A model generated the notes under the pieces. It did no database searches and was not told where the DNA came from. It saw only the letters and a list, made by a program, of their open reading frames with translations. Below, piece after piece: positions 19,620-52,691 of a DNA stretch of 53,632 nucleotides. This DNA comes from Candidatus Nomurabacteria bacterium RIFCSPHIGHO2_02_FULL_35_13. GTDB lineage: Bacteria; Patescibacteriota; Minisyncoccia; Phycocordibacterales; UBA9973. The stretch's first letter is position 1; every line of letters starts with the position of its first letter. A program made the translations under genes and the position numbers. The stretch is from positions 2,657 through 56,288 of the forward strand of contig MFTY01000004.1 in the NCBI GenBank assembly GCA_001785515.1. Direction: 5' to 3'.

Positions 19620-19635
19620 AATTTTTTAGAATAAT

Positions 19636-19658
19636 AAAACTCTTTTGCAACGAGTTTT
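19636..19658 (-). terminator. AAAACTC/GAGTTTT hairpin upstream of dnaX
   Basis: A 7-bp stem with 9-base loop. On the minus strand it is followed by ATTATT, so it could end transcripts arriving from dus. It is part of a longer repeat that recurs, imperfectly, at 19768-19794. Confidence 0.4.
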
Positions 19659-19664
19659 TCAACA

Positions 19665-19760
19665 AATAAGAAGAAATTCAAAAATTTAAAGAGTCGTGGG
19701 TTCCCTGTCCTCACGGACTCCGAGGGCGAAGGCTCAGAAATTTTTCGAATTTTTCTTATT
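19665..19760. repeat. Hairpin repeat, family 1 copy A (dus-dnaX gap)
   Basis: Arms 19665-19687 and 19738-19760 are about 21 of 23 complementary. They enclose a GC-rich core of 50 bases with GAGTCGTGGGTTCCCTG and CCGAGGGCGAAGGCTCAG. The core ends GAGTC/GGCTC continue the stem. The same core is found at 21003-21051 and 23358-23407, with different arms. Could be a structured RNA, a small mobile repeat, or a core inserted into a hairpin. Confidence 0.8.
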
Positions 19761-19818
19761 TTATGAAAATAAAACTCTTTTGCGATGAGGTTTATTTAAG
19801 CAAAAAATATAAAAATTT

Positions 19819-19938
19819 AAAACTCGTTGAGGGATAACTTTTTTAGGGGGTTTTAAGCGCGACGGCGCGAAAACTTCAGAATTTTTCAAGCTTCGAAAAA
19901 TTCGTACCCTAGAAAAAGATATACCGATGAAGAGTTTT
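19819..19938 (-). other. Predicted three-way-junction structured element after dus
   Basis: Outer arms about 32 bases long (19819-19850 and 19907-19938) begin with a perfect AAAACTC/GAGTTTT and include TTTTTAGGG/CCCTAGAAAAA. Inside are two hairpins: GTTTT-GCGC/GCGC-AAAAC (19850-19874) and a perfect 9-bp GAATTTTTC/GAAAAATTC (19879-19903, 7-base loop). The base of the outer stem overlaps the dus stop codon. This and copy A account for most of the 332-base gap between dus and dnaX, which has no gene. It may act as a terminator, a small RNA or a DNA structure. Confidence 0.5.
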
Positions 19939-20971
19939 AGATAGAAATTTTTATATTTTTCTCATTTCTAAGAAAATTATTTATTATTTTCTCCACTTCT
20001 TTGGAGTTTTCTGTTTCCATTAATTTTGCGCGTAATTCTTTTGCGCCATCAAAGCCATTCACGTATGCTTTAAAATGTTTTTTCATAACAGCAAAACTTT
20101 TATTCTTTGGCTTTGAAAGTTCTTTATCAAAAATTTGCGTGTGTTCTATTAGAATTAAAAGTCGCTCCTTAAGGCAAGACCTTTCTGAAGATTTAAGGTC
20201 TTGCCTTTTCCCGCTAAAGAAAAATGGATTACCAAAAACTCCACGACCTATCATCACTCCATCGCAACCATATTCTAAAGCTTTACTTTCTGCGTCTTTT
20301 AAATCCTTAACATCACCGTTGCCAATAAGCATTATTTCTTTTCTGCTTTTTTTTATAAGTTCCTTTATTTTTTTAATGTAATCCCAATTTGCAGGAACAA
20401 GTGATAATTCTTTAGAAGTACGCAAATGGATGGTTAAAGCAGAAATATCTTCTTTGATTAATTCCCCTATCCAAGTATCTATTTCTTCTTTATTAAAACC
20501 AACTCTTGTTTTAACCGATACCGGGATATTTCCTCCTGCGGATTTTATTCCCGCATGAGCTGCCTGTATAATTTTTCTTGCAAGTTGTGGAGTTTTTATC
20601 AAACCTGCTCCAGCTCCTTGGCTTACTACGGATTTGTCTGGACAGCCCATATTTATATCAATTCCATCAAAACCAAGGCTAGCAACATATTGACAAGCCT
20701 TTTCCATATTTTCAGGATTAGCGCCAAAAACCTGAGCTACAATTGGCCTCTCTGATTCCGAATATTCCAACATATGAGATAATTTCTTTCTAGCAAGTTT
20801 ATTACACAAGCCATCGGCTGATACAAATTCTGTCCAAAAAACAATGCTATTTTTATTTTCTCTATTTTTGCCATATTTCGCTAATATATAGCGAAAAGCG
20901 ATATCGGTGACATCCGACATCGGCGCAAGGCAGAAAAAAGGTTTCTTCAGTTTTTCCCAAAAATTTTGCAT
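19937..20971 (-). CDS. dus: tRNA-dihydrouridine synthase
   Basis: A flavin-dependent TIM-barrel enzyme reducing uridine in the tRNA D-loop. Motifs are the FMN-binding CLAPMSDVTDIAFR near 14-27, INMGCPDKSVVSQGAG (106-121) with catalytic C110, VKTRVGF (153-159) and the phosphate-binding GNGDV and IGRGVFGNPF. The C-terminal helical domain is present; length is 344. Which Dus subfamily cannot be told. Hairpin copy B abuts its start, and a TAAAAT box just upstream is too close to the ATG to be leaderless. Confidence 0.94.
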   Translation of the reverse strand: MQNFWEKLKKPFFCLAPMSDVTDIAFRYILAKYGKNRENKNSIVFWTEFVSADGLCNKLARKKLSHMLEYSESERPIVAQVFGANPENMEKACQYVASLGFDGIDINMGCPDKSVVSQGAGAGLIKTPQLARKIIQAAHAGIKSAGGNIPVSVKTRVGFNKEEIDTWIGELIKEDISALTIHLRTSKELSLVPANWDYIKKIKELIKKSRKEIMLIGNGDVKDLKDAESKALEYGCDGVMIGRGVFGNPFFFSGKRQDLKSSERSCLKERLLILIEHTQIFDKELSKPKNKSFAVMKKHFKAYVNGFDGAKELRAKLMETENSKEVEKIINNFLRNEKNIKISI

Positions 20972-20976
20972 AATTT

Positions 20977-21077
20977 TACCAAACTAAGAAAATTAAAAAT
21001 TTTAAGAGTCGTGGGTTCCCTGTCCTTATGACTCCGAGGGCGAAGGCTCAGAAATTTTTGAATTTTTTAGTTTGGTA
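20977..21077. repeat. Hairpin repeat, family 1 copy B (ftsQ-dus gap)
   Basis: Arms 20977-21002 and 21052-21077 share a perfect TACCAAACTAA/TTAGTTTGGTA and about 22 of 26 overall. The core matches copy A except for a short variable part (TTATGACTC for CACGGACTC). It fills the gap between ftsQ and dus almost exactly. Confidence 0.8.
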
Positions 21078-21088
21078 CAATACTACCC

Positions 21089-21949
21089 TTATTTAAACTT
21101 ATAGTAAACCTTATTGCCGAAGCGAAGGTCAATGTATAGAAGCGAAGAGTATTTATTTTTTAAATCTGATTGAAGGGGTTCAGTAGTAAGCACTGTTTGT
21201 AAATTTTCCGCCAATTGTTCAAAATCAGAATCCGTTTTGAAAATTATTTCCGGACCCATTTGCGATATTGAAGAATAAAGAAACATTTTAATATCACCAC
21301 TATCTTGTATGTAAAATGCTGCCGGCTTTATTCCCGCTTTTTCCAGTGTTTCCTTGAATAAAATTAATTTTCCAAAATTTACCGGGAAAAAATACGAACC
21401 AAACGGGTCACCCTCATCCAAATTAACCGTTCCATATAATTTTAAATAAACTCCTCCAGAAAAATAAGGAGCTTCGTCAAAAATATATCCGCTATCATCA
21501 ACGAAATAACATTTATTGTCATTTAATTCTGGCAAAATATTACCGCAATATGTATATAACGCTGTTCGTTCTGTTAGAGAGATATTTAAAGTTTTTATAT
21601 TTTTATCATTAACAGAAATATCCTTGATTCTTTTAAATTTATCTTTTAATTCTGTTTCTATTTCGCGTTGCGGGTAAATTATAAAATTTGTTTTCGGGAA
21701 AAAATAAAGATAATTTCCTGAAATTTTTTCTTTTACAATTTCTTCTATCATGTCAGTTTCTATAACTTTATTGCCTGAAATTTGGATACTGTTTATATTT
21801 AATTTTTCCCATTTGGAAAGAAAAGACAGACCAATTAAAATTAAAATAAGCAAAAAAACCAGAAAAAATATCTTTCTTGTAAAAATCTTACGTTTTTTCT
21901 TTTTTAATTCCAAAAGACGCGGAGAATCCAAAACACTTCGATTTTTCAT
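21089..21949 (-). CDS. ftsQ: Cell division protein FtsQ/DivIB
   Basis: A bitopic division protein of the divisome. A Lys/Arg-rich cytoplasmic N-terminus (about 1-27) precedes one transmembrane helix (28-46), a POTRA domain starting at INSIQISGNKVIE (about 53-65) and a C-terminal FtsQ domain with SLTERTALYTYCG. Length (286) is normal. It lies away from the mraY-ftsW-murG cluster. The ATG directly abuts a palindromic element whose inner part holds AAGGAG about 20 bases upstream, too far for a standard ribosome site. Confidence 0.85.
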   Translation of the reverse strand: MKNRSVLDSPRLLELKKKKRKIFTRKIFFLVFLLILILIGLSFLSKWEKLNINSIQISGNKVIETDMIEEIVKEKISGNYLYFFPKTNFIIYPQREIETELKDKFKRIKDISVNDKNIKTLNISLTERTALYTYCGNILPELNDNKCYFVDDSGYIFDEAPYFSGGVYLKLYGTVNLDEGDPFGSYFFPVNFGKLILFKETLEKAGIKPAAFYIQDSGDIKMFLYSSISQMGPEIIFKTDSDFEQLAENLQTVLTTEPLQSDLKNKYSSLLYIDLRFGNKVYYKFK

Positions 21950-22019
21950 CCCAGTACTAAAATTTTAATCTCCTTATAATAATCATAAAAACAACCTAAT
22001 CAAAAATTTAGTACGGGAC
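21950..22019 (-). repeat. Start-codon-flush hairpin, family 2 copy 1 (before ftsQ)
   Basis: CCCAGTACTAAAATTTT (21950-21966) pairs with AAAATTTAGTACGGG (22003-22017) with one bulge, around a ~36-base AT-rich loop. On the minus strand the 3' arm ends CTGGG directly before the ftsQ ATG. It occupies almost the whole serS-ftsQ gap. Confidence 0.8.
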
Positions 22020-22024
22020 ACGTA

Positions 22025-23290
22025 CTATTTTATGAAATCCTTTCCACCCATATATTTCCTTAAAACTTCCGGAATTTTTATAGTGCCGTCGGCTTGCTGA
22101 TAGTTCTCTAAAATAGCTGCAGGTAATCTGGAAGTAGCGCAAGCCGTATTATTTAGAGAATGAACGTATTTTGATTTTCCATCTTCATCTTTATATTTAA
22201 TATTAAGTCTGCGAGCTTGAAAATCATGAAAATAAGATGATGAATGAGTCTCACGATACTTGTTTTGAGACGGCATCCATGTTTCTAAATCATATTTTTT
22301 TACCTGACCCAGGCCGAGGTCTCCTCCGCAATTAGCGACAATACGATATGGTATTTCCAATTCTTGCATTAAATGTTCCACATGATTAGTAATTTCTTCA
22401 TGCAGTTTAGCAGATTCTTCATGATTGGCTTCACATAGCAAAACTTGTTCCAGTTTAAAAAATTCATGAACTCTGATAATTCCTTTTATATCTTTTCCAT
22501 GACTTCCCGCTTCGCGTCTGAAACAAGGTGAAAAAGCGATGAATTTCATCGGGAGAGATTTTTTAGATACGACTTCTCCGGAAAAATAAGACATCATCGC
22601 AACTTCAGCAGTACCGGCTAAATATTCTCCATCTTGTGTTCTATATAAATCATCCTCGCCTTGGGGTAAATATCCAGTACCCATCAAAGCTTCTTTTCTC
22701 ACAAGTGACGGCACAATCATTGGAACATATCCCAATTTTACAAAATAATCCAAAAAATATTGCCAAAGCGCAAAAAATAATAAAGCTCCATCGTTTTTCA
22801 TAAAATATCCGCGAAAGCCAGAAACTTTTGTGCCCCGTTCAAAATCAGCCATATCAAGTTCTGTCATTATTTCAATATGGTCTTTGGGAGTAAAATTAAA
22901 TACAGGTTTTTCACCCCAAGTTCTGATTTCAACATTTTCCTCATCGTTTTTTCCTTCTGGAACGGAAATATCCGGAACATTCGGAACTTGTAGCATAATT
23001 TGATGCCACTCACTCATTATCGTTTTTAATTTTTCTTCCTTTTGCTTAATATCTTCTTTAACTGCGCGCATTTCATCAATTAACTGCATTCTTTTAACCG
23101 AATCTTTTTCAGTAGCAACATCATTTGAAACTCTATTGACTTCACTTCTCAAATCTTCAACCTCCCTTAATTGTTTCAAACGCTCATCATCTAAAGCGAC
23201 AAGTTTTTCAATATCAATGTCTACGAACTTCTTTTTTGCTCCTTCCTGCACTATTTGCTTGTTTTCGCGGATAAATTTGATGTCTAACAT
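22025..23290 (-). CDS. serS: Seryl-tRNA synthetase
   Basis: A class II synthetase with an N-terminal tRNA-binding coiled coil (about 30-105) and a catalytic domain. Visible are TGYLPQGEDDLYR, AGTAEVAM, motif 2 FSPCFRREAGSHGKD followed by IRVHEFFKLEQ, and motif 3 with NNTACATSRLPAAILENYQ. The family N-terminus MLDIKFIRENK starts at the ATG at 23290; an upstream ATG adds 13 hydrophobic residues that are not part of the family and overlaps the promoter. Length is 421. Confidence 0.96.
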   Translation of the reverse strand: MLDIKFIRENKQIVQEGAKKKFVDIDIEKLVALDDERLKQLREVEDLRSEVNRVSNDVATEKDSVKRMQLIDEMRAVKEDIKQKEEKLKTIMSEWHQIMLQVPNVPDISVPEGKNDEENVEIRTWGEKPVFNFTPKDHIEIMTELDMADFERGTKVSGFRGYFMKNDGALLFFALWQYFLDYFVKLGYVPMIVPSLVRKEALMGTGYLPQGEDDLYRTQDGEYLAGTAEVAMMSYFSGEVVSKKSLPMKFIAFSPCFRREAGSHGKDIKGIIRVHEFFKLEQVLLCEANHEESAKLHEEITNHVEHLMQELEIPYRIVANCGGDLGLGQVKKYDLETWMPSQNKYRETHSSSYFHDFQARRLNIKYKDEDGKSKYVHSLNNTACATSRLPAAILENYQQADGTIKIPEVLRKYMGGKDFIK

Positions 23291-23302
23291 ATGTTTATTA
23301 TA
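23291..23302 (-). promoter_or_regulatory. serS promoter
   Basis: TATAAT (23302 to 23297, minus strand), six bases, ATG at 23290; a TTTTCA-like -35 lies 17 bases further upstream. It excludes the longer serS start. Confidence 0.65.
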
Positions 23303-23334
23303 TATTATTACTGTTATAATGAAAAGCAAGAAAA

Positions 23335-23431
23335 AATTAAGGAAATTTAAAAGATTTTAAGAGTCGTGGGTTCCCTGCCCTCACGGTCTCCGAGGGCGAA
23401 GGCTCAGAAATCTTTTGAAATTTTCTTAATT
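23335..23431. repeat. Hairpin repeat, family 1 copy C (serS-dprA gap)
   Basis: Arms 23335-23357 and 23408-23431 match at 22 of 23 positions with one bulge (AATTAAG, AAATTT and AAAAGATTT blocks). The core is the same 50 bases as in copies A and B. The arms differ in sequence from A and B but stay self-complementary. It lies between divergent genes, so it is not simply a terminator. Confidence 0.8.
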
Positions 23432-42893: not shown

Positions 42894-45800
42894 AACATTT
42901 TATTTGAAAAATCATGATAAATATCATGTAATTTTTTGACATTAGATTCAATTATTTTTTTATTCGAATCCGTAATTATAAATTTGTTATCTTTTGAAAC
43001 CCATCCAATTTTTTTATATGAAATTCCTTTAACTGTTTTTTCAAATTTAGAGACATTTTTAGGTAAAACTGAAACAAGAATTCTCCCCTGGCTTTCGGAA
43101 AATAGTCTTACATCTACGGAGGAATTGCCTCCGTATAATGAAGAAATCCTGCCCGGCATGTCTGAAAGAGAAACTTTGCATCCCAACATTCCACCAACAG
43201 AAGCTTTTGCCAGCGCAACAGCTAAACCGCCGGAGGTAAGAGATATAGATGAGGAAATTAATTCCTTTTTGATTACTTCCTCTAAAACTAAATAGGTTTT
43301 TAAATTATTTTTTAAATCAACCTTGGGAACATTATTTCCAATACTGTTGTTTCCTTCTTTCTTGGCTAGGAATTTATAATATTCGGATGCCCCAAGTTCG
43401 TCATTTGTTTCTCCTAACAAATAAATAACATCACCGGAATTTTTAAATTCAGGAGAAACAATTTTATGAATATCTGGAACAACGCAAATAGCTGAGATTA
43501 AAATTGTAGGTGGAATTGATATTGCTATAGGATTATTTTTTTCATCATATCCTTTAAAATCATTAAACATGCTATCTTTTCCGGAAATCAAAGGAGTGCC
43601 ATATCCGACTGAATAATCATAACAAGCTTTGACTGATTCTATAAGCTGAGCAAGACGATTCTTATCGTAAGAAGAACACCAGCAGAAATTATCTAAAATT
43701 GCCAAATGCGACAGAGTTCCTCCGCAAGCAATTACATTTCTGATCGCAGTGTCTAAAGCGCAAGCTGTCATATGATAAGTGTTAATATCTCCGTATGACG
43801 GATAAAGACCAGCGGACAAAATCACTCCTTTAGAAGCTGAAAAAACAGGACGAAAGACTTGCGCATCGGTATTTATGCGTCCCCGGCCGGAAAGAGGTTT
43901 TAAAACGGAAGATGCCTGAACTTCGTGGTCATATTGTTCCGAAATGAAAGAAAAACCGCTAATATTTTTATTAGCAAGCAATTCTTCTAAAATTTTAGTT
44001 TTTGAATTTTTTGCAATTTTCGCCTCGCCCGTAAGGCTATGGCCGAGGGGTTCAGGAAAAATATTTACAATAGCTTTGCTTTCAAGAGAACGTTTTGGCA
44101 ATCCGTTATGCAAAAATTCTAAATCAATATCAACGATGGTTTTACCTTCATATTTCACTACACATCTTCCGGAATCGGTAAATTCTCCTATCACCACCGC
44201 TTCAACTCCGTGATTTTCCATAAGTTTTCTGAATACTTCCCATTTTTTCTTTGGAACAGAAAGAGTCATCCTTTCTTGAGACTCTGAAATCCAAATCTGC
44301 CACGGCTGTAATCTGGGATATTTCAATGGAACTTTTTCCAAATCCACAAGAGCGCCATTACACTCTTTCGCCATCTCCGCAACTGAACAAGAAATACCTC
44401 CCGCACCATTATCAGTAATGCTGTTATATAAATTCATCGCTCGCGCTTCTTTTACTATTGCGTCACTTAATTTTTTTTGGGTAATTGGGTCACCTATCTG
44501 CACCGCTGTCGCCGGGCTGGAAGAATCCATCGTTACTGAAGAAAAAGTAGCGCCATGAATGCCGTCTGCGCCTACCCTTCCGCCAATCACAACAATATAA
44601 TCGCCAGCTTCCGTTTTTTTCTCATGAGAAAGTTTTCCATTTATTTTTCTCGGAATAATTCCAACTGTTCCCACAAAGACCAAAGGCTTTCCTCTAAATC
44701 TGTCGTCATATTTCACAAATCCGGAAACTGTCGGAATTCCGGAACAATTTCCGCCGACATTCACGCCTTTTATGACTCCTTCCATAATACGTTTCGGCGG
44801 GAACATTTTTTTTCTTTTTTCATTGCTTGCCCGTCCGAAGTCTTTAGACGAAGGAGGGTCTCTATATAAAGCCCTGGTGTCTTCAGGATTTCCAAAACAA
44901 AAACCATACGCATTTGCAACAGGTTTTGCTCCGAGTCCGAAGCCAATAGTGTCTCGATTTACCCCTACAATGCCCGTAATTGCCCCGCCAAACGGGTCAA
45001 GCGCAGAAGGACTATTGTGAGTTTCAACTTTATGCGTCACTAAATAATCTTCATCAAAAACAATACCGCCGGAATTGTCAGAAAAAACCGAAACGCAAAA
45101 GTCTTTATTTCCCTTTTGTTTTCTTATTAAATTTGTAGCGCCCTTTATGTAAGTTTTATATAGACCGTCTTTTATATCGTCTATTTGATTTGCAAAAATA
45201 GTATGTTTGCAATGTTCGGACCACGTTTGTGCTAAAGATTCTAATTCTATATCTTTCGGGTCTCGTTCAAGTTTTTTAAAATATTTCTGAATCACTTTCA
45301 TTGAAGCAAGGTCCAGAGCTAAAGGACCTCTACGCGCGCCAGTCTCATCTAAAATTCCTTCACGACCGATTTTTATCAATTCTTCATCGGATACCGAAAG
45401 TGAAACAGGGATTACTGGAATGCGTTTTTCTAAAATTACTTCTGGCGCTTTAAGCGGTAATCCTTTCGTTTTTACAATTTCTTTCACGCCGGCAATATAT
45501 GCGCGCTCAATTAAAGGATTATGCAAAGATAGGGCAATTTTTTTAACATCTTCTAATTTAACTGAACCGGAAATTATGAAAACCTTAGAAGTATAAATTT
45601 TTAAATTTGCATCTTTCTTTAAATGTAACAAATCAACAACGGTTTCTTTCGCTGTATTTCCCACATTATCCGTGACCCCCGGCAAAAAGCCGATTTCAAT
45701 AATGTAATTGAATTTTCCAGCATTTTTTAAAATTTCATTAATTGAGAATTTTTCAATAATCGGATTTGTCAGCATTTTTGCGGATTGTAGTATCTGCTCA

Positions 45801-48089: not shown

Positions 48090-48156
48090 CCCAGTAGTAA
48101 AATTTAATTAATAATGTTTATCTTTACGTCTCGTAATCAAAAATTTACTACGGGAC
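48090..48156 (-). repeat. Start-codon-flush hairpin, family 2 copy 2 (before ddl)
   Basis: CCCAGTAGTAAAATTT (48090-48105) pairs with AAATTTACTACGGG (about 48141-48154) with one bulge around a ~35-base loop. On the minus strand the 3' arm ends CTGGG directly before the ddl ATG. Compared with copy 1, GTACT/AGTAC has become GTAGT/ACTAC: both strands changed together. Confidence 0.8.
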
Positions 48157-48228
48157 AAGTTGTTTTTTGAGTTTAGCACATTCCCGCCTGCAAAAGCCAT
48201 ACTTTAAGCATTGCGGGCAGGTATTACC
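48148..48228 (-). other. In-frame zinc-finger-like extension after the TAA of the zinc-module gene
   Basis: Reading on from TAA (48229-48231) in the same frame gives 26 sense codons before TAG: GN, then TCPQCLKYGFCRRECAK, then LKKQLVP. Four Cys in CPxC and C-x3-C form a further zinc-binding pattern, consistent with the protein. It may be a relic C-terminus or a read-through extension. The DNA of this stretch also forms a near-palindrome (48185-48221), so an alternative is a terminator hairpin without U-tract. Confidence 0.4.
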
Positions 48229-49971
48229 TTAATACACCTCTTTTTGATAGCATTTTTCACAATATACCATTTCCGGGCGGTTCGGCGCATAAGCTGTTTC
48301 AAATTCATTTTGGCAATGATTTTTATGGTCGTGATTACTTTTATCACACATGCAATTTCTTTTCCATAATTTTAAAGATGGCATAATCTTAAACCTTTCA
48401 TAGTGACGGCAGTTTGGACAAAAAATTGGTAATGGTATGTCATGTTTTTTGTAAAATTTAAGCTCATAATCTGTTAAACGAAAAGCAATATTGCATTGAT
48501 GGTCACAATTCCCTTCATGAGCGCAACCCAGAACTTCTTTTAAAATATTTTCATTTACATCATCAATATTATCAGGAATTTTACCTGCTGGAATTGTAAT
48601 ATCAAAATTCTTTGCATCTGGTTCACGCCAAGGATAACCATTTTTTCTTGCTTCTTCCTTGGTAATTGGAAAAAACTCCTGCGCCGCAGTTTCATTGTAA
48701 GCCCATGTGCAAACTTCTATCGGAAAAAATTCACCGTATTCATATTTTCTTCCCGCTTTATCAATAAAAGGCATGGTACTCATTTGCTTGATGATTTCTG
48801 ATTTTAATTTAATAAATTCCTCTTTGGAATAAATTTTATTAAAAATCGCATTTTCTGCGTTGCGAAGTGAAATACAACCGAAAATATTCGTGCAAAATCT
48901 GCAAGATTCAGTATAATCGGCGTCCCGCACAGAATCCATCGCTGAATAAGAAAACCTCACATTGTAATCATTCATGGCGCCCGCCATATAGTCATAGAGT
49001 AACTCTGATGTTCCTGCAAAATCCATATCCATACAATCTTTAGAGCCAAATGCTCTAAAACAATAACTGCAGTTTTCCATGTTGTATACTTCAAAACAGT
49101 TTTTACAGTTTTTTACATTTAGAAGATTATTTCCAGTAGAATTTGTGGCTTTGTTTATATTGCCAAAACGATATATAGCTTTTTTTCTCATCTGTTTAAA
49201 TTCTTCCAAGAGAATATTGCGAGAAACTCTGCTTTTTAAATTAAATTTCTCCAATTCTTTAAAATATTCCTCTTTTGAATATTGTTTATTGCGAATACAG
49301 AATTTCTTATTACGCAAGTTGTAAGAAAGAATGCAATCGTTGCAATTAATGCAATCAATGGAGTAATAAGAATCCATGCAATTTCTACAAAGTAAAAGAT
49401 ATTGCGAATTGTAATTTCCTTGCGCCTCAACAGTTTCATATAAGCTTTCAGAACCGTTTATAACATTTAAACAATCTATTATATCTTTTGAATGATCTAT
49501 GCATTTTGAATAAAAAATGTTTTCTGATTCCATCACTACGGAAGTAGATAAATAAACATTTTTAGCTTCTCCCACATGATTTGAATAATCTGAGTTAATT
49601 GCATTTCTTTGCCAAAGCATCAGTCTCGGAACCGTGTTGGAAAATTCTTTATATTGTTCAAAAAACGGCCTGGACATATCATATTCTCGTCCATAAGAAG
49701 TTGGGTCCCATTGGTCTCCTAACCAGCATTCCCGGCAATATACCGGAAAAGGCACCGATGCATGATACATAGATATGATATTCTTATTACAAAGATTACA
49801 GATACGGCGATATAATATTTTCTCGTTGCGCCAAACTAATCTGCGAGTAAGTCTGCATTCTGGACAAAAAGTCGGCGGAGGAACTTTTATTTTTTCATAA
49901 AATTTAAAATCTTCAAAATCTATTGTGAAATCTTTCTTACAGTTTTGACATATTTTTGTTTCACTTTTCAT
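48229..49971 (-). CDS. Large Cys-rich zinc-module protein (580 aa), family unknown
   Basis: About 40 Cys, arranged symmetrically. The N-terminal module (about 8-85) has C8/C11, then YEKIKVPPPTFCPECRLTRR, then ICNLC and YCRECW. The C-terminal module (about 478-580) has the same order: Cys-rich start, YKKHDIPLPIFCPNCRHYER, a Cys pair and YCEKCYQKEVY. Between them is a repetitive region with CINCNDC, NCSYC and CRFC motifs, each followed by a NLRNKKFCIRNKQYSKEEY-like unit, found at least twice; this looks like a solenoid. No signal peptide or catalytic motif. The C-terminal half matches the partial gene at the left end of the window. Confidence 0.8.
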   Translation of the reverse strand: MKSETKICQNCKKDFTIDFEDFKFYEKIKVPPPTFCPECRLTRRLVWRNEKILYRRICNLCNKNIISMYHASVPFPVYCRECWLGDQWDPTSYGREYDMSRPFFEQYKEFSNTVPRLMLWQRNAINSDYSNHVGEAKNVYLSTSVVMESENIFYSKCIDHSKDIIDCLNVINGSESLYETVEAQGNYNSQYLLLCRNCMDSYYSIDCINCNDCILSYNLRNKKFCIRNKQYSKEEYFKELEKFNLKSRVSRNILLEEFKQMRKKAIYRFGNINKATNSTGNNLLNVKNCKNCFEVYNMENCSYCFRAFGSKDCMDMDFAGTSELLYDYMAGAMNDYNVRFSYSAMDSVRDADYTESCRFCTNIFGCISLRNAENAIFNKIYSKEEFIKLKSEIIKQMSTMPFIDKAGRKYEYGEFFPIEVCTWAYNETAAQEFFPITKEEARKNGYPWREPDAKNFDITIPAGKIPDNIDDVNENILKEVLGCAHEGNCDHQCNIAFRLTDYELKFYKKHDIPLPIFCPNCRHYERFKIMPSLKLWKRNCMCDKSNHDHKNHCQNEFETAYAPNRPEMVYCEKCYQKEVY

Positions 49972-51953: not shown

Positions 51954-52691
51954 TTAAAAATTCGGAGTAATTAAAGCTACAGATTCCATTAAGCTTTTTG
52001 CAGATGAGCCAGGTTGGTTTAAAAATTCGCGAACTTTGAAAAAATGCTTAAAAAAAGTAAAGTCAGAATAATTCTTTAGAAACTTGCTTTGCAATATGGT
52101 TTCAAGCGCATTTAAAAATTTTAAAGCTTTGGAACGAGCGCTTGATGTTTCAATTACTAAATTTTCCTCATCTTCTTCCGCTTCGGCTAACAATTCTTTT
52201 ATAAAATCAATTCTATTTCTGGTGGGCATTGTTATAAATTTTTCTGCTTCCTTTAATTCATTTCCTAATTCTGTTTTTGTCCTGATTAAATAAAACCTGG
52301 AAACAAGGGTTTTTAAAAGAATATTAATATCAGGTATTATGATAAAAAAATGCGTATTTTCTATCGGTTCTTCAAATATTTTGAGTAAAGTATTTTGCGC
52401 CTCTAGCAAAAAATTATTGGCAGAAATTAAAAATATTTTTTTCCCGGTTGCCTCGCCCGTAGAGCTATGGCCGAGGGAAAAACTTTTCTCATATTCCATG
52501 GATTTTAAATTACGGGCATCTTCAATCTTAAAAGAATCTACATTTATGTGACAAAAATCAGGATTACCGGAAGTTTCTATCTTTAAATTTTTCATGAATT
52601 TAAAAATTTCCGGCACAATTTCTTCTTGTGCGCCTTCTATCAAATATGCGTGATGTAAATTATTTTTATCTAGATTATTTAAAATTTCCAT
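51954..52691 (-). CDS. Clamp-loader delta-prime-like protein (HolB-like)
   Basis: An AAA+ clamp-loader relative with no Walker A (LIEGAQEEIVPE takes its place). It keeps HHAYLIEG, KIFLISANNFLLEAQNTLLKIFEEP and the SRFYLIRTK region that in delta-prime contacts the ring. Residues 73-81 (LGHSSTGEA) are an insert from a palindrome shared with purL; the family normally goes straight into the KKIFLI strand here. Length (245) is short for HolB (~330), so the C-terminal collar may be reduced. It overlaps the mreB stop by one base. Confidence 0.8.
   Translation of the reverse strand: MEILNNLDKNNLHHAYLIEGAQEEIVPEIFKFMKNLKIETSGNPDFCHINVDSFKIEDARNLKSMEYEKSFSLGHSSTGEATGKKIFLISANNFLLEAQNTLLKIFEEPIENTHFFIIIPDINILLKTLVSRFYLIRTKTELGNELKEAEKFITMPTRNRIDFIKELLAEAEEDEENLVIETSSARSKALKFLNALETILQSKFLKNYSDFTFFKHFFKVREFLNQPGSSAKSLMESVALITPNF
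52451..52477. repeat. In-frame palindromic insert, copy in holB-like gene
   Basis: CCTCGCCCGT-AGAGCTATGG-CCGAGGG: paired arms CCTCG/CGAGG, CC/GG, TAG/CTA. On the minus strand it encodes LGHSSTGEA between EYEKSF and the KKIFLI strand of the AAA+ fold. Confidence 0.75.

Follow-up and report, generated by a model that had tools for sequence, protein, structure and literature searches.

Three hairpins in a 53,632-nt stretch of the genome of Candidatus Nomurabacteria bacterium RIFCSPHIGHO2_02_FULL_35_13 (GenBank assembly GCA_001785515.1, contig MFTY01000004.1, positions 2,657 to 56,288 of the forward strand; hereafter, the window) are members of one repeat family, which we call alpha. This unit of roughly 95 bases (~90–100 bp) is dispersed, has been inserted whole between genes and, in frame, at sites encoding loops of housekeeping proteins, and persists at the same loci across species with a core more conserved than its surroundings and an outer stem whose two sides change together. 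Its behaviour would be that of palindromic selfish DNA. The explanation that we favour, with a probability of about one half, is that alpha is a non-autonomous palindromic DNA repeat, similar to Rickettsia palindromic elements (RPEs) and repetitive extragenic palindromic (REP) sequences, whose arms are kept complementary at the DNA level, probably by template switching during replication.

A preliminary description of the window had placed three hairpins in one orientation within it, and all three (copies A, B and C) were found at those positions (Table 1), with folding z-scores against dinucleotide shuffles of -3.1, -6.6 and -4.4, respectively. For family statistics, 143 unique alpha copies were collected. 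Their core is mostly 36–40 nt long (CGTG...GGGCGAAGG) and is bordered by conserved arms, 15 nt long on the left side and 13 nt long on the right. Beyond this lies an outer stem of ~13 bp; its sequence conservation between copies is close to background (mostly 0.0–0.4 bits), and ~93% of its pairs are Watson–Crick. The stems mostly end 27–33 positions from the core, with a weak A/T edge beyond. The arms had been described as unrelated between copies, which holds for the random outer ~13 bp and not for the 13–15 bases beside the core. The same layout was found on examination for shared terminal inverted repeats of the type of miniature inverted-repeat transposable elements: conserved inverted arms extend just 13–15 bp from the core, and further out each copy has a sequence of its own.

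The complementarity of left and right arms within each copy was evaluated in 56 copies from the genus, whose own arms out-paired arms swapped between copies (pairing scores of 18.7 ± 2.7 vs 7.9 ± 3.5). The inner helix GAGTC/GGCTC, by which the ends of the core had been proposed to extend the stem, is also real, as it covaries to GCGTC/GGCGC and GAAAC/GTTTC. The 13 inner pairs were 93.9% paired, with 40 cells changed on both sides and 0/500 shuffles as good. Deeper in the core, an invariant GTGGG precedes a putative CCCT/AGGG helix that hardly varies.

Compensation was followed at single loci across species. In 24 same-locus pairs, 76 outer-stem pairs had changed on both sides and were still Watson–Crick, compared to 23 one-sided changes, and under a stricter criterion, which kept the 12 pairs whose flanks are strongly homologous on either side, the corresponding numbers were 32 and 13. 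Divergence over the 24 pairs was 0.09 in the core, 0.31 in the outer stem and 0.23 in the flank. Several compensated changes were located within coding sequence, in the recJ genes of the genome containing the window and of a relative (G000 and G022, loci L033 and L333; G and L numbers are our designations for genomes and loci). These orthologous copies show directly the repeated structured element with a drifting, compensated outer stem that had been one of the two explanations put forward at the outset.

A search of the genome and its relatives with the core, as had been recommended, yielded 21 matches in the 554-kb genome G000. Alpha matched in 14/25 genomes of the Ca. Nomurabacteria genus to which G000 belongs, so far its only host genus, the core itself being present in 13 of them and the match in G013 consisting of flank only. 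No alpha match was detected in 16 genomes from the order's other families, among 192 genomes sampled phylum-wide only G000 was matched, and the phage and plasmid collections searched gave no match. A pattern scan of species genomes located true copies almost exclusively in Nomurabacteria; three pattern hits on viral contigs were discarded, as they look like chance. One clear copy (L095) lies on a 268-kb contig labelled Burkholderiales, probably a misbinned Nomurabacteria contig. An Rfam search returned nothing at the gathering score and nothing credible up to E = 5 in a permissive run, and no paper on this repeat was found in the library searched. Core distances were smaller within genomes than between them (0.088 vs 0.143, 0/2000 permutations as extreme), as exemplified by G003, where 7/9 cores carry CGTGTTGG. 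One truncated copy (L249) shows decay. In another genome (G021), two copies (L064 and L073) are interrupted at an identical point of the alpha core by a nested palindrome, CCTGCCTGYCGGTAGGCAGG, in full or shortened.

Regarding placement, 100 of the 143 copies are intergenic and 43 (~30%) lie inside long open reading frames, those outside cca, recJ and rsmH having been found by requiring an open frame. Among these 43, the element is antisense to the gene in 40 and sense in 3. Genes with an in-frame alpha include pheT, rsmH, recJ, cca, ligA, polA, uvrC and mnmA, among others; gene names were read from translations, except for the cca, rsmH and recJ proteins of G000 and the neighbours of copies A–C, which were identified with Pfam. 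Genic copies encode peptides such as KNSPAFALGDIGQGTHGSLNS, the predicted insert peptide in RsmH being, for example, AFALGDIGQGTH. In an AlphaFold2 model of one protein, the RsmH of G000, insert residues 101–115 had a predicted local distance difference test score (pLDDT) < 50 and were flanked by well-predicted methyltransferase segments. The inserts inspected in cca, recJ and rsmH have an open frame continuous with that of the gene, and are not left unread as in translational bypassing.

Between genes, the element was antisense to co-directional neighbours in 51 of 75 scorable gaps and sense in 8 (p = 9e-9). Whether replication strand rather than transcription strand causes this bias was checked on one 336-kb contig, whose five copies are too few for such a comparison. 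An intrinsic terminator, that is, a U-tract hairpin in sense orientation at a gene 3' end, was rejected on the basis of these 51 gaps and of the intragenic copies. The hairpins had been considered not merely terminators, a view supported by the occurrence of copies within operons and within genes. At some loci the copy is reversed where relatives have the usual orientation (L331/L086 in RsmH, L299 in CCA, L393 between dus and dnaX), due either to independent insertion or to inversion of the spacer within the palindrome. Elsewhere (L052, G003:C15:172000-176000), a single major facilitator superfamily (MFS) transporter gene oriented against its replichore has an alpha copy on each side, both in the same orientation, an arrangement that may represent a composite unit.

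Comparison of filled and empty sites revealed what is inserted. The cca loop was empty in 31 and filled in 40 of 71 sequences (counting all element families), every filled one being open in frame. Empty recJ genes have 3 residues between LP and LP, and filled ones are ~30 codons longer. The net insertion at recJ and CCA is ~90 nt, which is the whole hairpin including both arms. Similarly, the dus–dnaX gap that houses copy A measures 9–20 nt in several relatives without the element, and the serS–dprA gap of copy C measures 17–70 nt in many relatives. No leftover hairpin was detected at the unfilled dus–dnaX, serS–dprA, recJ and CCA sites, which mostly contain just 9–70 nt or 3–9 residues. The copy A locus is also filled in G006, G081 and G078 (downstream of dus) and, reversed, in G060; copy B has a filled ortholog in G022, and another filled ortholog of the copy C locus is L416. 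Many species have a TATAAT-like box in the serS–dprA gap (e.g. L400, L405, L411), ~7 nt ahead of the start codon of dprA, which suggests leaderless transcription.

Alpha shares its sites with other elements. Filled cca loops contain at least seven core families (alpha, beta, delta, epsilon, zeta, eta and theta), mostly with locus-specific complementary arms and sometimes two in tandem or nested. In the cca of G000, alpha is enclosed by remnants that resemble a beta element, and two elements occupy one site at L299, L302, L315, L318 and L321. At the CCA-HD loop (L284-L322), RsmH and RecJ loci, different species have different cores in the same protein loop, for example GGTCCTCGG..CCAGACCA (in both orientations), GGGGTCGCTGTCT.., GGAACCTTCCGTC.. 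and CCGTCRTTCGCAC...

The pairing itself provided information on which strand folds. A selected mRNA hairpin would favour G.U pairs on the mRNA strand. At pair 27-69 of the inner helix, most copies have T.G on the element strand, which becomes C.A in the mRNA, and among intergenic outer-stem mismatches at positions 19-28 of the element strand G.T outnumbered A.C (27 vs 10, p 0.008). Genic copies had 7 of each at these positions, and a broader count (positions > 18) showed no wobble preference (38 v 28). A function as an mRNA hairpin is unlikely, because the wobble pairs favour the element strand, opposite to the mRNA. As this strand is opposite to the genes, better candidates for the folding molecule are a hairpin of single-stranded DNA (ssDNA) and an antisense RNA made separately.

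Under the template-switching explanation, ssDNA of the element strand would fold into a hairpin during replication, and the nascent strand would switch template within it, rewriting one arm from the other, so that the arms could drift and yet stay complementary. The stem may sometimes be extended into the flank by the same process, most clearly at L416. There, the right arm runs on into GCTTTTCATT, which perfectly repeats, in inverted form, the native AATGAAAAGC found beside the insertion, next to the left arm; other species share this native sequence (AATGAAAAGT at L400 and L404). Judged from its sequence, L416 is the clearest candidate for a template-switch footprint. The core would be homogenised among the copies of one genome, and spread may take place via ssDNA or replication-dependent copying. 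Template switching is an established route by which imperfect palindromes become perfect in E. coli (PMC7202029), and it has been proposed both to create RNA hairpins and to help maintain them (PMC8794818).

Several points weigh against the favoured explanation. When native flank codons were compared with the opposite side, the test for complementarity was weak (p 0.017 for cca, 0.24 for rsmH and 0.52 for recJ); therefore, copying from the target does not account for the arms in general, and the claim of such copying is confined to single cases. The sharp stem end ~28–33 bp from the core suits a defined unit better than an open-ended extension, and the slow evolution of the core needs conversion or selection in addition. 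Similarity of the outer stems guided the choice of ortholog pairs, and some alignments of AT-rich flanks may be non-orthologous, a caveat despite which the 12 strict pairs agree with the 24-pair result. Moreover, no movement was observed, and neither adjacency to Y1 genes nor presence across genomes linked a transposase to alpha. Finally, selection on an ssDNA hairpin would yield the same compensation without template switching, and the mild intergenic wobble excess is easier to explain by selection.

Such selection for mobilisation constitutes the main rival. In this case the DNA repeat would be the same, with arms complementary through the need of a Y1/HUH nuclease (RAYT-like) or another ssDNA-binding protein for a long hairpin of the element strand in order to move the copy. 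The invariant GTGGG ahead of the putative CCCT/AGGG helix recalls the tag (GTRG) and hairpin found in REPs. One strand is singled out by the wobble bias as well as by the T.G pair, the orientation bias is strong, and Y1 transposases are common in the genus (32/40 genomes). However, none of 30 Y1 loci had a copy of any family within ~0.7–1.5 kb, genomes G022, G008 and G016 carry the element with no Y1 match, and long-lived orthologous copies in genes should escape selection for mobility. We regard this rival as possible but doubtful. Across the genus, the Y1 genes (PF01797) encode proteins of ~200–260 aa, occur in up to 13 copies per genome and have no recognised repeat partner.

It is unlikely that alpha is a cis-acting structured RNA in transcripts (a regulator, processing site, terminator or stability hairpin) with a sequence-free outer helix. 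The defined stem length, conserved core, helix covariation and location in short intergenic gaps would agree with such an RNA, but the stable wobble pairs are on the strand opposite to the mRNA, the element lies antisense amid unrelated coding sequences, Rfam gave no match and most orthologous gaps lack the element. It is quite improbable, too, that fold-back copying of the flanking target generates the entire outer stem upon insertion, which would leave each copy with an inverted copy of its own target. L416 could be read in this way: its left arm runs on into the native AATGAAAAGC, and its right arm finishes with a perfect inverted copy of that sequence. L404 offers a similar, imperfect case, and the left arm of L393 is the end of the dus coding sequence. 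Against this, the ~90-nt insertion at recJ and cca holds both outer stems, and swap tests with native codons were mostly non-significant. Scarcely credible is the other explanation offered at the outset, a small mobile core that inserts specifically into the loops of pre-existing hairpins, which would accommodate the nested and tandem elements (those of the G000 cca and the five double sites above) and is contradicted at four loci (dus–dnaX, serS–dprA, recJ and cca), where empty sites have no hairpin and the insertion includes both arms.

We compared alpha with known systems, among which RPEs and intragenic REPs appear, by analogy of behaviour, to be the closest. According to two reports (PMC10969869, PMC3767692), RPEs and Wolbachia palindromic elements are ~100–150 bp long, with several families per genome, lie between genes and in frame at housekeeping-gene loops, and are conserved at orthologous sites, different families sometimes being found near one site. 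Alpha is likewise palindromic, accompanied by several families and present at orthologous intergenic and housekeeping-loop sites, and as a dispersed palindromic repeat it lies in frame inside genes without breaking them (43/143 copies; cca inserts). The likeness is one of architecture, with no sequence relation seen, and the phylum is another. Alpha differs in that its outer arms are private to each copy yet complementary, for which no description was found in the passages on RPEs that were read.

REPs are palindromic, have many copies and are mostly intergenic, sometimes being found in repair and replication genes (PMC3733652), and REPINs form long hairpins (PMC3116915). Alpha resembles REPs and REPINs, including the CGTC-tagged REPs, in being palindromic and multi-copy and in having GTGGG before a putative GC-rich helix. 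By contrast, REPIN arms are conserved, as inverted REPs around a spacer, whereas alpha has a conserved centre and variable outer arms; nor was a cognate Y1 gene flanked by the repeat found for alpha at any of the 30 Y1 loci, unlike the REP/RAYT arrangement. Template-switch (quasipalindrome) mutation is comparable to alpha in that it generates perfect inverted copies as well as compensatory changes that are linked (PMC8794818, PMC7202029), but it is a process and not an element, and would act repeatedly on the dispersed alpha family. Nematomorpha mitochondrial genes contain long inverted repeats within translated sequence (PMC6649704); there, both arms encode conserved protein, whereas the alpha palindrome is a loop insertion from a dispersed family.

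Table 1. Alpha copies in the window (positions counted from its first nucleotide).
Feature	Position	Strand	Context
Copy A, whole hairpin	19665..19760	+	Antisense to the two genes that it separates, dus (3' end) and dnaX (5' end)
Copy A, conserved core with inner helix GAGTC/GGCTC	19691..19736	+	
Copy A, left outer stem	19667..19679	+	Private sequence, complementary to 19746-19759
Copy A, right outer stem	19746..19759	+	
Copy B, whole hairpin	20977..21077	+	Antisense to the two genes that it separates, dus (5' end) and ftsQ (3' end)
Copy B, conserved core	21006..21050	+	
Copy B, left outer stem	20982..20994	+	
Copy B, right outer stem	21060..21073	+	
Copy C, whole hairpin	23335..23431	+	Between divergent serS and dprA
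Copy C, conserved core	23361..23406	+	
Copy C, left outer stem	23337..23349	+	
Copy C, right outer stem	23416..23429	+	

Other repeats were detected in the window. A 35-nt direct repeat (AATAAAACTCTTTTGCRAYGAG.., 83% alike) lies on both sides of copy A (19624-19658 and 19759-19793) and may relate to insertion. A repeated AAAAATTTAGTACGGGACACGTACT-like motif (21945-22031 and 48134-48168; also L399) is found in intergenic, hairpin-like surroundings between ftsQ and serS and recurs in relatives. The GC-rich 28-nt repeat GCCTCGCCCGTARRGCTATGGCCGAGGG has two copies, 93% identical (44022-44049 and 52450-52477), and a 96-nt inverted repeat pair 47 kb apart (742-837 / 48222-48317) is 77% complementary.

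Compensatory change is usually taken as proof of a selected RNA structure. We tentatively suggest, at less confidence than for the nature of the repeat itself, that the arms of alpha may be continually rewritten by replication, that unrelated cores may exploit the same process, also in essential genes, and that the covariation may thus come from mutation and not from structural selection. Alpha may be a natural case of textbook covariation on the non-mRNA strand, with many replicate loci in several species; therefore, selection and template switching can be tested against each other. In-frame palindromic repeats, known from Rickettsia, are hereby extended to the reduced genomes of Patescibacteria, and the ~30-residue inserts in RecJ, RsmH and the CCA enzyme should not be taken for functional domains.

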